Shown here piece after piece: positions 5,301 through 58,400 of a stretch of DNA of 64,000 bases (its first letter is position 1; the number at the start of each line of letters is the position of its first letter). This DNA comes from Macrocystis pyrifera (Eukaryota > Sar > Phaeophyceae > Laminariales > Laminariaceae), in contig JASSKH010000003.1 of assembly GCA_031763025.1 (NCBI GenBank), positions 15,372,992 through 15,436,991 of the forward strand, in the 5' to 3' direction. Made by a program: the position numbers and the translations under genes. The notes under the pieces were generated by a model. It had not been told where the DNA came from and ran no database searches. It saw nothing but the letters and a program-made list of their open reading frames with translations.

Positions 5301-8300
5301 CCCTCCTATCAGGTAGTCGTGACTCAGATCCGGGGTCGCATAGCAGGCTCTCCTCCCCCCTCCCCAGTGGTATGTCGGTATGTTTTAACAACATTTTTCC
5401 GTATGGACGTGGGGCATGGAAATGCTCATAGGGTCAAGCGTAATTTAACCATCATACAATATACCCGATTTTTGGGTGAGGAGCCTTGAAAAAAAACACA
5501 CACACACACATGCGTTCGTTCCCTGCTTGAACCCCTGCCGACAAAATATTTGTTTGTTTGTTCCTTTCGTTTTCTCGAGTTCATAGATTGTGTACGTCGT
5601 GCCTGTTGTATCCAGTACCGTCACAGAATTGCGTTGTCTACTCTAGATGCTGCATAACAATGCAGTATCTCTGTGGCGTAGCTTTGTGACCACAGCGCTC
5701 GTATCTCTCTAGGTTTGAAGAATCGGCACGGACACTCGTTGTGCTGGATGTCGATGGGTAGAAACAACGGTCTGCCGTGAAGAACAAACACACGTGTGAA
5801 TGTCCCCCTCTGGTCGCTGAGCTCGACTTCCGACAACAACAAAAGATACCATCAAACCAAACAAAAAACAAAAACAGGGGGCAAACAAATCCAACCAACG
5901 AGCCGTTGGTCGTCGTACACCTGCTGGTATTGGTACCAGGTACTTTACCAAGTGACAGCCGTTTGGCCGTCCAGCCCCCCCCCCTTCCTCTCCCCCCTTT
6001 CCCCCGTCGTACCTGGTGGTCGTCGGGAGGATTGGTAAGCGTCACGTCGAGGGAGCTTGCTTCGGGGTTAACCCCAGCGAACGACATCGCCGTCGCAGAG
6101 TTGATCAGCACGGCCTTGAGCAACGCCGCCGACGGCTCGAAGCTTGCCGTGAGGTTCTGGCTGCCCGTGTTGAACCACCCTTCGCGAAAGTACTGCCGAG
6201 CCATGGCGCCGTTCCCGGCCACGATAGGTGTCGACATGCTCGTCCCCTGAGTCAACAAAAGAGCGGGGTCCCAATTTTCCACGAAGTGTGATACGAGGTA
6301 GGCGAGGGGGTGGCATCGTTGGAAAAGAGGGGAAGGGGGTCAGCTGTTTACGCCTGAGATAATGTTCCCCTCTTCAGTGTAAATTGGAGCCTATCCTACG
6401 ACCACGGACTCGATTTCGGCGACGTTTATCCTTTTCTTAAAATCGCTTGATTATAAGAACCCGCCTCGCGCTCAGCGGGTCTACCACTATTTTTTGTCGC
6501 TTCTACGATCTTTGCTTTCTTCGCGTTCTTTGGTTTCTTCGTGTGCTTGCTTCTCGTGCCACACTTTTTTTTCCCCGAAAAACAGAAGAAAAAAAAAATC
6601 GGAAAAAGTAAAAGTCGATTGTGTTTCTTCAGCGGTTTGGCAGGCTCTCTTTCGCTTTTTTTTGTCACCGGCTCGTTGAAATTTCTTTTGCACTTTTCGT
6701 TATGTTTTCCTTTTTTCTTCCTTTGTTTCGTGTGCATGCGTGTACTCGGAGCACGGCACCGCGAGGGAGCCCGGCGCCGTCGCGGGTGTCGCCGGATGCT
6801 GGCGGGTAGAGGGGGGGTTGCAAGGAGTGCGGTCGCCGTTTTCGTGCCTATGCGTCGTGTGTGCCTCGAGACACGAGGGAAGCATGAATAGGCTCTGTCT
6901 GGCCTCCATCTGAAAATTAGACTGAGTTTGTACGAGTCCATAAGGGTCGTTCGGGATCGCAAGATAAGATTCAAGCGTTGCTTATTTTTCCGAACCAAGC
7001 TGAACTACACAGAGACGTACGCAGTCTGAGCACCAACATTATCGAGCCGGCGAACGAGGGTCACGGTGAGCATCGGGCTTCACGTGGGGCGGGCGACGGG
7101 GCTCACTGTGACAGAGAGGGAGGAAAGCTTTACCCGGACCGAATCGGTGGCTAGGTGGTCGCAAGAGGGGCGGGCGGCGTACGAGGCTGAGAGAGAAGCT
7201 CTGCTGTTCATTTTTTTCTTTTTGGACTGGTGCAAGGTGTTCCAATCAGGCAGAAAATTATTGTACGAGAGGGGACGGGGATTTTTGTTTTTTTTCTCGC
7301 AATTTTCGGGTTCATTTTCGTTGTTTTGGCGGTGCTGCTGCTGTGCCGTGTGCTGTTTCTCTTTCGTACATACCAGAGGTACATACAGCACATCAAAAGA
7401 GGAAAATAAGTACCCTACCGGGGGTATGTACGTACGTACGGCATGTGACTCTTGGCATTATCAAGTCGCCAATTTGCAACTACAACAATCAGAATATATA
7501 TCATATATATATTCAATCATCGACCTTCTGTCGGCTTCGCGTAGTTTGATGTACTTTTCCTTCCTGAGCGAGCGTAGCGGGCGGCGTAGGCCGCCCGCGG
7601 AGCGAAGCGCCTTGTATTAGCTTACCGTTTGCGAGCCGAACCCGCACGAAGTCCCCGTCGGGTCAGCGTACGCCGACCAAGTAGGGTCGCCCGGAGCCAC
7701 GACGTCCGGCTTGATGCGCCCGTCGATCGTAGGCCCCTTGGACGAAAAGTACGAGACGGTGTCCTCGTCCTTGCCGGCCTTGCCCGCAGACTCCGACGAC
7801 CCCACGGCCACTACGTTCTTCGCCTGCGCCGGAGAGAGCACCGTGCCAAGGTCGTCGTCGAGCACGTCGCAGTTGTCGATGAAGTCGTCCGTCGCCGAGG
7901 TGTCGCCGCAGTTGCCCGCAGCGAACACCACCAAAAAGTCCTGCGGCGAAAAACATAAAATACGTGCAGATACCGTATGGCCAGCTCTGTGTCACTACGA
8001 CAGATTGAGTAGTTGAAAACTCCATTTTTAGTTTTGCGAAAGCTGCGTGCTACGTCAGCAGTTGTACTTCTGTGGGTTATAGTTCTGACGAAAAAAAAAT
8101 ATATAAAAAAAAGTGCAACAGTAGTAGTAGTAGTAGTAGTAGTAGTAGTAGTAGCAGTAGTAGTAGCAGTAGTAGTAGTAAAGTAGTAGTAGTAGTAGTA
8201 GTAGCAGTAGTAGTAGTAGCAGTAGTATTAATAGTAGTAGCAGTAGTATTAATAGTAGTAGTAGTAGTAGTAGTAGTAGTAGTAGATGCTTCAAGTCCAC

Positions 8301-55447: not shown

Positions 55448-58400
55448 CTGTGGAAGAAGCGGGGGAGCAGGGGTACACAAGTTTGGAGGCCGGATTACAT
55501 GTATTTCGATGAGGAAAAAAATTGGGACTGTTGTTTGAGAGCAGCAGCGTGCCAAGTTTTAGATCGTGCTTGGTTGTATCCGAACCCTAGGAGAATACCG
55601 GGAAACGTCCTACCGAAGCACTTGGAAACCCCTGGTGGCATATTGAGTGCATATTCAGGTGGATTTCTCGGTTCCCGACTACTCGATTCCCGATTTTCCC
55701 TCTCCGGCAAATGTTCAACAGCTTTTAGCTCGTTTCTTTTCAGACAATGAGGCGGCACGGTGTGATGTTCGCGTGCACGGCCCGAGCGAGAGAACACGCG
55801 TATACACGAGTACGTCTGCTTTCTGTTCAACAGCTGCGCTCTCGTATAAGATCTCGTACCTGGTACGACAAGTGCTAGGGTAGGAGTGCTCATGTGAGGA
55901 GCTCCAAACCACTAGAAAGTGACCCCACAACCGATTCGAGCAAAATCGTGAGCTAAGCCCGATGCCCAATTCCCATGCGCTACGAACATCGAACGAATAA
56001 TACAGTAAAAACGTACTGGTAGTTTACAGTGGCTGTCGTTGAGAACTCGCGCAGCAGAAAAAACATTTGGAACTATCGGCAGATGGTACACCGTAGTTGT
56101 TGTTGCTGTCTGGTTTCATAAAATCGGCTTCAGCCAGCACGAAATAGGTCTCCTATTTTATTAGGATTTGTGAAAAAGCCCCCCCCACCCCCCCTATACT
56201 ATAGGTTGGGTTGGCGGCGGTTGGCGACGACGCTGCAAAACACGCCTCTTTCTCACTGCGTGAGCTAGACAGCCAGGGTACCGTTTTTGTTTTTGGCGGC
56301 TACCACGGCTGGCGATCGAGTTAGATCATTTATGTGCGGGGAGAACCTTCACTCCGCACAAGGGGGATGATCGTATCACGTAGTCTGTATATGGTGAGGC
56401 ACCCACGAGGCAGTTACATAGTAAACCCATTGCTGTCTCTGGAAGTGGCCACACCAGAAATTAAATCAATTCATTGATGCTGCCATCCATATGCAAGAAA
56501 ATCCGCCTCTAAAGCGGTTCTTAGTAGGATGCAGCTCACCCTTCATGCGACTCGCCCAACACCTCACGGCGCTTCGCGCTTGGTGCAAGCAATGTCTGCC
56601 TGGTCGATGAAAACCCGACGCGCTCCGTCTCATGTGGGGATGCGAGGGTCTATGGTCATACGACTACGGCCATGCATGACAATGAGTACTGCCCCCCCAA
56701 CCCCCTCAGCAAAAGGTACACCCTTATATACGTTTCAGGAAATCGGCTTCAGCCAGCTCGATATGTAGGGGTCCCAATTGTTCGGGCGCCCTCAAGCGGA
56801 CAGATCATGATCTACAGTAAATAATCTAGTTCCTCACTTGCAGTTATGAGGTGTTGTGAAGAATCTGTATAGCACACATCCAACCCAAGAAACATGTGCT
56901 AGATAGTGCAGATAACACGGCTCCCATCCGGCAGCATGAGCTACTGTACTCGTAGATCATGCAATAATCGGGAACAGATCTTCCCCGAAAGATCTAGATC
57001 ATGAAATAAAAATCGATGACGGGTTCGAGGTGAGAAACGTTTGCGGCTCAAAAGCGCAACCGCTACCGTAGTGCGGCCCTTTACTTACCGTTTTCACGTA
57101 GCAGTTGGGAGCACAGGAATGGTTTAAGAAGCGTGAAACGTTCCCCTTCTTCGTCGCGTCGATGAAGGTTTTTTCGTCGAGGCGAACAACGAAATCCTAC
57201 GTAGGGGGGGACGGGGTGGGACGGGCGGAGGAGAACTCGCGTTGTGGGAGTAAGTCATTTGGGATCAGCGTGAGATCATTTTCGCAGTGGTACATGGGTT
57301 ACGAAATCCTACGTAGGGGGGACGGGGGGGGGGGGAGCGGCGGAGGAGAACTCGCGTTTTGGGAATAAATCATTTGGGATCAGGGTCATATCATTTTCAC
57401 AGTGGTACATGGGTTATAAGCCGCAACGCGAACGCATCGATAGCGCCCAGAAAAACACGAAAACTAACCGGGAAGAAAGACAAATCTCCTGCTCACCAAA
57501 AAGAGCGTTTCGCATGGCCACAGGCAGCTAATGAGCGACTTTTAGCGCGGTAGTTCTTGCAAGACAAGAGCAAATTCGCGTCTCTCCGTTCCCTGCTCTT
57601 ACCTTTACATTAGCCTCTTACCATCACATTAGGCTAGTCTCCTACCAACGCAACAGCCTCCTACCATCACATTTAGTCTCCTACCATCACATTAGTCTCG
57701 CGGTACGTCGCGGCTCGCTTCTGCGCCTCTTCCAGATTCAGGCGCTCTCCCTTGTACTCCGCGACCAACTCGTGCGCACGAATTGCTTGGGCTGCGAAGA
57801 CGCCCAGGCCCTGGAAGAGTCGAAATCGAGCGAAAAGACACGATCGCCAAAATCAGGGAGAGCGAGCGAGCGAGATGCATACAAGTTTAATATCGTACTT
57901 CAAGGGCCGGTATAGAGTGTACGCAAGCAGACAGTACGAGCATCGTATTTCCAGACACGAGGGAGAGTATGGTGCAAGCAAAATGATTGTTCGTGTTTTT
58001 CCCCTCGCTGCCCCCGCGCGTGCCCTTGTTTCCCCCCCCACTCCATAGTGCATGCGGCTCGGTCGAGCTCCGATACAATAGTTGACATCATAGTCCACAC
58101 TAACTCCTAAGTACATTTTCCTTCCGAGGAATTTCCCAAATGTGGTCGGAGATAGGCTTTTGGGGTGAGTGATTCAAAGTCAAGCAACAGTATACTTCGA
58201 CTATTTTGTCTACAGCTAGGCCAAGGTTGACTTCAGACTTACAGCCCTTCTCTCCTCCCACCTGCACCATAGACTTCTCCACCCTCAGGCGCGTTTTTGA
58301 TCGAGCGTCTACGTCCTTGAAAAACTTGCGGAATGTGCGCATGTGCCGCGCCGACTCCTCGCCGCTCCGCTGCTTTGCCCCGTGGGCTGCCTGCAGCACC

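Follow-up and report, generated by a model that had tools for sequence, protein, structure and literature searches.

Why does a single 9-bp palindrome, TACCWGGTA (W, A or T), recur so often in a 64,000-nucleotide stretch of the giant kelp Macrocystis pyrifera (contig JASSKH010000003.1, positions 15,372,992 to 15,436,991 of the forward strand), hereafter the window? The first-pass annotation had listed 24 copies between positions 5934 and 55865, 12 with a central A and 12 with a central T, and had suggested that they are scars of a TA-targeting cut-and-paste element; all 24 were relocated (Table 1). Sequence comparison makes it very probable that TACCWGGTA marks places from which a Tc1/mariner-like family of miniature inverted-repeat transposable elements (MITEs) has been excised, and the suggestion is supported by TA-only alleles and an element in place at the same repeat-family site.

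We counted the word in the window, in a 264-kb sample (the 64-kb window plus twenty 10-kb genome stretches) and in the genome searched (537,376,219 bases in 223 contigs), using as backgrounds dinucleotide shuffles, a Markov model and the reversed word, respectively. Passages of the assembly report give 537 Mb in 223 contigs with an N50 of 13,669,674, and name one haploid female gametophyte as the source (PMC10498591). The window's 24 copies compare with a mean of 0.36 and a maximum of 2 in 100 shuffles, the 61 sites in the sample with ~2 expected (~30-fold), and the 121,279 copies in the genome with 2,421 reversed words (50-fold); the strong over-representation claimed earlier thus holds. Among TA-x5-TA words in the sample, CCWGG (61) leads a runner-up with 14, and the central base is near 1:1 (30:31). 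By flank comparison 57 of the 61 sampled sites are non-redundant, which upholds most of the earlier statement that the flanks are unrelated; the sites at 25043 and 25050, however, form a doublet sharing one TA and are not separate places. Such double scars number 5,620 genome-wide versus 0 for the control, indicating reuse of scar TAs. A raw count of the double-scar word in viral contigs gave nine records. Neither TACCWGGTA nor a genome-wide scar count was found in the literature, among the matches listed; no listed paper matching the word or its two spellings had brown algae or transposon scars as the subject of its title.

The same site can be followed in three states. (L numbers denote labelled genome stretches, with the position within the stretch after the colon.) The scar at L012:524 differs from three paralogues, two in L009 and one in L021, by a clean 7 bp over a plain TA, and the window's double scar differs from its paralogue at 48867-48881 by 14 bp, i.e. 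two scar units. The L012 repeat yielded 2,076 first-look candidates in the genome. Exact-word genome counts at the family site, which are unaffected by any choice of similar rows, gave 2,888 plain TA versus 39 scarred (27 TACCTGGTA, with T, and 12 TACCAGGTA, with A), so the TA-only and TACCWGGTA alleles that the first-pass annotation had envisaged at one locus are both seen, among paralogous repeat copies. Plain TA is the common state at this site. In L105, a 79-bp element lies at exactly this TA, and a second TA and then the right flank come after it. TA-only, filled and scarred alleles are therefore present at one site, in paralogous copies and not in individuals, and the footprint consists of the element's end bases. 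L105 is one of the 18 places matching AAATAGTTGATACCWH, all of which were retrieved; 14 of the 18 have the family's longer left flank. In a set of 44 family copies, 40 of them rows chosen by similarity to a scar-bearing query and hence scar-enriched, the site is plain TA in 20, TACCAGGTA in 9 and TACCTGGTA in 8; the remaining 7 read otherwise. On a tree of these copies, whose resolution is weak (3 of 41 inner branches starred) and which is subject to the same biased row choice, the A and T forms are as mixed as under shuffled labels; the scar at this site probably arose more than once.

Some family members show other arrangements. At the family site L054 reads TACCTGGCTGGCTGGTA, a scar variant that looks like a duplication of CTGG in the course of repair. 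In L066, TACCTGG is followed by sequence that, read by eye, resembles a LINE (long interspersed nuclear element) endonuclease, and L066, L090 and L101 carry unassigned sequence after the TA.

The paralogue alignments also bear on the idea, raised in the first-pass annotation, of a mutational hotspot, here a hotspot or slippage word derived from CTA/CAG microsatellites. Microsatellites are indeed abundant, but the flanks of the word are mostly unrelated and not microsatellite, and the clean 7-bp and 14-bp insertions at TA contradict this origin, which we regard as extremely improbable.

The element in L105 is a 79-bp hairpin with the ends CCACTCTGAACC...GGGTCAGAGTGG, set between two TAs where the empty site has one. 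Folded as single-stranded DNA, it forms one hairpin (-16.1 kcal/mol, z -6.19). A genome search with this element returned 594 first-look candidates, 40 of which were scored (94-100% identical). In the 40 copies read (L105 and L106-L144), the length is 79 bp in 38, TA lies on both sides in 37 and the termini are CCA...TGG in 36; the terminal inverted repeats CCACTCTGAACC / CCACTCTGACCC are present in the copies read, and many copies match the L105 query on both strands. A joined-flank search (≤4 mismatches in 26 bases) retrieved an empty site for L105; those it retrieved for L112, L116, L118, L124 and L132 lie in copies of a different MITE. In the DNA examined it gave weak or repetitive matches only for L114 and L126 and none for the other 32 copies. 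Two copies, L121 and L143, lie immediately next to a scar. Relatives of the MITE occur at 10 places in the 264-kb sample at E ≤0.001 (four of them the model seeds) and at 13 at E ≤0.05, with none in the reversed control. Three of the ten lie in the window, and the earlier remark that the window holds no such element is wrong for these decayed relatives.

The first-pass annotation had pictured a different parent, a Tc1/mariner element with CCAGG or CCTGG ends that is cut five bases inside. The scar's own letters, the near-equal A and T in both window and sample, and a MITE relative in L057 with CCTGG at one of its two ends would agree with it, but the young element ends CCA...TGG in 36 of 40 copies. 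TACCWGG half-words that lack the following TA, moreover, are near background, with a modest excess of 87 versus ~62 expected in the sample, about a dozen of the 87 falling in the L008/L014 repeat. Of the 14 AGTTGATACCWGGV places examined, out of 18, only 3 are in the repeat family, and at these 3 we found no inverted CCWGG-ended element; scans for terminal inverted repeats with CCWGG, CCW or CC ends returned mainly local palindromes, many in L008 and L014. We consider such a parent very unlikely. An early reading of the scar as five bases of one end was dropped, as was a second repeat as parent. A recurrent continuation after TACCWGG (five copies) was rejected as an element end, since the repeat's other side is conserved too, and all eight sites of a further candidate, TACCCGGGTA, lie in two local clusters. 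L008:7800-9930 and L014:2530-9790 consist of long palindromic repeats, several copies of which carry TACCAGGTA by descent, and TACCGAGAATTTCGGTACG-like palindromes are repeated in window 50600-51600.

How might a CCA...TGG element leave CCWGG? Passages on Sleeping Beauty and mariner transposases describe cuts three bases inside the element that leave three-base 3' overhangs (PMC7827188, PMC3770610). A mariner-type transposase cutting three bases inside the kelp element on one strand would likewise leave CCA on each flank, on opposite strands, with the TA retained. Unlike Sleeping Beauty, whose footprint in those passages is the three-base overhang, the kelp overhangs could not pair over their full length, and the scar has five bases. 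The flanks would join through an A:A overlap of a single base, or once one of the two As had been lost, and the gaps would be filled on both sides, giving exactly CC(A/T)GG: CCA plus GG, or CC plus TGG. The A:A mismatch could resolve to A or to T, which would yield TA-CC(A/T)GG-TA, while reinsertion of the element at another TA would let scars accumulate with copy number staying modest. The same ends also give less common joins that are likewise above expectation: TACCATGGTA (3 vs 0.3), TACCGGTA (10 vs 3.2) and TACCAGTA (19 vs 9.4).

Once formed, the scars would decay neutrally. Genome-wide, the excess of one-mismatch words over the reversed-word background is 119,969 versus 118,858 for the exact word; in the sample these words have 0-9 copies each versus ~1-2.3 expected, summing to 77 versus ~50 under the Markov model. 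Because one-mismatch words are also in excess, the scars appear to decay rather than to be maintained, and a single-age model of the mismatch ratios gives roughly 5-10% divergence per base. The pattern is one of long accumulation without strong maintenance.

To compare target preferences, both flanks were read outward from the TAs, giving 114 flanks for the 57 non-redundant scar sites and 74 for the MITE sites. At scars, T stands at -1 in 5/114, A at -3 in 43/114 and at -6 in 56/114, and W at -7 in 90/114; the corresponding counts at MITE sites are 7/74, 38/74, 50/74 and 68/74. MITE sites and scars have most of this preference in common (few T at -1, with A favoured at -3 and at -6 and A or T at -7), and the bias is weaker when all TA-N5-TA sites are pooled, scars included.

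Decay and target preference both speak to a further alternative, that the word serves protein binding, chromatin or replication and is preserved by selection or conversion, as in the case of HIP1, a cyanobacterial palindrome. The exact 9-bp palindrome does occur genome-wide, with a purine before it and a pyrimidine after, as such a word might. Yet the plain TA far outnumbers the scar at the family site, one-mismatch forms share the excess (about equally genome-wide, about half in the sample), the word forms 7-bp doublets, and a MITE occupies the same TA at sites with most of the scar logo. The empty, scarred and filled states of one site also disfavour the binding or chromatin motif mentioned in the first-pass annotation, and we give a maintained word very little credence.

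A fourth possibility is programmed removal of MITEs during the life cycle, like that of ciliate internal eliminated sequences. It would suit the dominance of one join and the ratio of scars to recognisable MITEs in the sample, roughly 5:1 (61 vs 10 to 13), but MITEs persist in the haploid gametophyte assembly and decayed scars point to inheritance. We think it almost certainly wrong.

Several observations weigh against excision of this MITE family as the source of the word. Excision is known here from its presumed products only, and the uniform one-base-overlap join is one that we infer. Within the sample, one-mismatch words exceed expectation by only about half as much as the exact word does. 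Some words have been copied within repeats (4/61 redundant), so that 121,279 overcounts events. The flanks agree incompletely: G stands at -1 in 48/114 scar flanks but in 14/74 MITE-site flanks, and T at -4 is favoured at MITE sites (33/74) but not at scars. At the family site T scars exceed A scars 27:12 (p 0.024), and empty copies group together on the tree of 44 copies (1/500 shuffles as low); some scars may have been inherited within a subfamily, or the biased row choice may be showing. Matches to PF13358 and PF01359 were absent from the genome, the control for the latter being silent as well. PF03184 (DDE_1) gave 39 matches, many without an internal stop; the 8 of these loci that were inspected, with ~1.5-2 kb on each side, showed no MITE-like ends. 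The PF03184 loci are candidate partners of some TA-targeting MITEs.

Among known systems, the kelp element invites comparison with Stowaway, which it resembles in its subterminal AAATATAAG-like stretch. Passages on plant Stowaway MITEs and their mariner partners describe footprints in which the TAs remain together with 1-4 bases from the element ends, and the kelp MITE is similarly a short hairpin with a TA target and its duplication (PMC1925063, PMC4561436, PMC3660474). It differs in its ends, CCACTCTGAA in place of the consensus CTCCCTCCRT, and in the dominance of one five-base product where several distinct footprints are described for Stowaway (PMC1925063). It also differs from plant Stowaway in its brown algal host and in the ~121,000 copies of the scar word. 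In Ectocarpus, non-autonomous Mariner-Tc1 elements are described as abundant, with 17 families and almost 12,000 copies (PMC12477816); both are brown algal genomes with non-autonomous elements of this type, a likeness at the level of description. The terms footprint, excision and MITE are absent from that paper's main text.

A second pair of MITE and scar word was found. The MITE TTACGGGGG...CCCCCGTAA, ~105 bp long, has 12 copies in the 264-kb sample, 11 with TA on both sides, and its sites have C at -1 in 14/22 and T at -3 in 14/22. The word TATTAATA occurs 50 times (44 non-redundant), with C at -1 in 47/88 and T at -3 in 51/88. This MITE is likely the parent of the TATTAATA scars; its TTA overhangs would pair over two bases to give TTAA.

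Tc1/mariner-type footprints are of a known kind; those described here are a notable variant by their number, their uniformity and the joint recovery of parent, empty site and scar. On balance we lean towards a broader proposal, that giant kelp joins the breaks left by any given MITE family almost always alike (CCA to CCWGG, TTA to TTAA), leaving the genome as a countable, datable log of ~100,000 or more departures, written in several scar alphabets, with scars outnumbering elements. If this is true, MITE copy number badly underestimates MITE activity, and families that have vanished from a genome, whichever it is, could be recognised by their scar words alone. Reports of excision footprints, to our knowledge, usually cover only a few. 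With ~121,000 copies of one product, together with its parent, empty sites and logo, one assembly might suffice to read the rates and ages of excision and the outcomes of repair. The number of scars per resident MITE is relevant to how these elements keep their numbers despite excision, and the approach of matching TA-x-TA words to MITE ends and target logos could be used on other genomes, extinct families included.

Table 1. Presumed scars, empty sites, MITE relatives and further words in the window.
Feature	Position	Strand	Sequence or remark
Scar	5934..5942	.	TACCAGGTA
Scar	9851..9859	.	TACCTGGTA
Scar	14949..14957	.	TACCTGGTA
Scar	16480..16488	.	TACCTGGTA
Scar	17182..17190	.	TACCAGGTA
Scar	18655..18663	.	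TACCAGGTA
Scar	18706..18714	.	TACCTGGTA
Scar	20417..20425	.	TACCAGGTA; one-base-changed form in paralogues (window 30367-30548, L016 6030-6305)
Scar	22863..22871	.	TACCTGGTA
Scar	23919..23927	.	TACCTGGTA
Scar	24719..24727	.	TACCTGGTA
Double scar	25043..25058	.	TACCAGGTACCAGGTA; two of the 24 sites
Scar	26948..26956	.	TACCTGGTA
Scar	28196..28204	.	TACCAGGTA
Scar	36048..36056	.	TACCTGGTA
Scar	41524..41532	.	TACCAGGTA
Scar	43247..43255	.	TACCTGGTA
Scar	44454..44462	.	TACCAGGTA
Scar	48417..48425	.	TACCAGGTA
Scar	49112..49120	.	TACCTGGTA
Scar	53053..53061	.	TACCAGGTA
Scar	53772..53780	.	TACCTGGTA
Scar	55857..55865	.	TACCTGGTA
Empty site	48867..48881	+	paralogue of double scar 25043-25058; plain TA, 14 bp shorter
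Empty site	16044..16066	+	plain TA; repeat-family site scarred in L012, filled in L105
Parent-MITE relative, decayed	11326..11407	+	starts TACCACTCTG; right end worn
Parent-MITE relative, decayed	5121..5203	+	ACCACTCTGGGCG...
Parent-MITE relative, more decayed	5040..5106	-	
Second MITE at TA	18998-19102		TTACGGGGG...CCCCCGTAA
Second MITE at TA	21594-21700		TTACGGGGG...CCCCCGTAA
Second MITE at TA	28692-28796		TTACGGGGG...CCCCCGTAA
Second MITE at TA	32166-32271		TTACGGGGG...CCCCCGTAA
Second MITE at TA	41756-41860		TTACGGGGG...CCCCCGTAA
Second MITE at TA	47498-47601		TTACGGGGG...CCCCCGTAA
Further word	16495		TACTCGTA/TACGAGTA
Further word	22636		TACTCGTA/TACGAGTA
Further word	25283		TACTCGTA/TACGAGTA
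Further word	29751		TACTCGTA/TACGAGTA
Further word	31554		TACTCGTA/TACGAGTA
Further word	39953		TACTCGTA/TACGAGTA
Further word	44322		TACTCGTA/TACGAGTA
Further word	56947		TACTCGTA/TACGAGTA

Of the sites that the first-pass annotation placed in introns or intergenic DNA, the one at 5934 falls within an open frame on the minus strand (5638-6282), past the frame's subtilase-like stretch. On contig C3, four TACCWGGTA sites at ~32-47 kb recur in the same series ~120.2 kb further on, at ~152-167 kb, which suggests a large duplication or an assembly duplicate. The words TACTCGTA/TACGAGTA are 5-fold over-represented in the 264-kb sample (54 vs 10), with 43 non-redundant and a weak flank logo, and may represent a third scar, left by an element with CTC...GAG ends. 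TACWGTA is the Sleeping Beauty-type scar, whose central mismatch can resolve both ways. Its over-representation in the 264-kb sample is 2.3-fold, and its flanks show a preference for C at -1; examples are at window 26426 and 36703, at L018:3080 and in L044. Paralogue alignments show it as a short insertion relative to TA.

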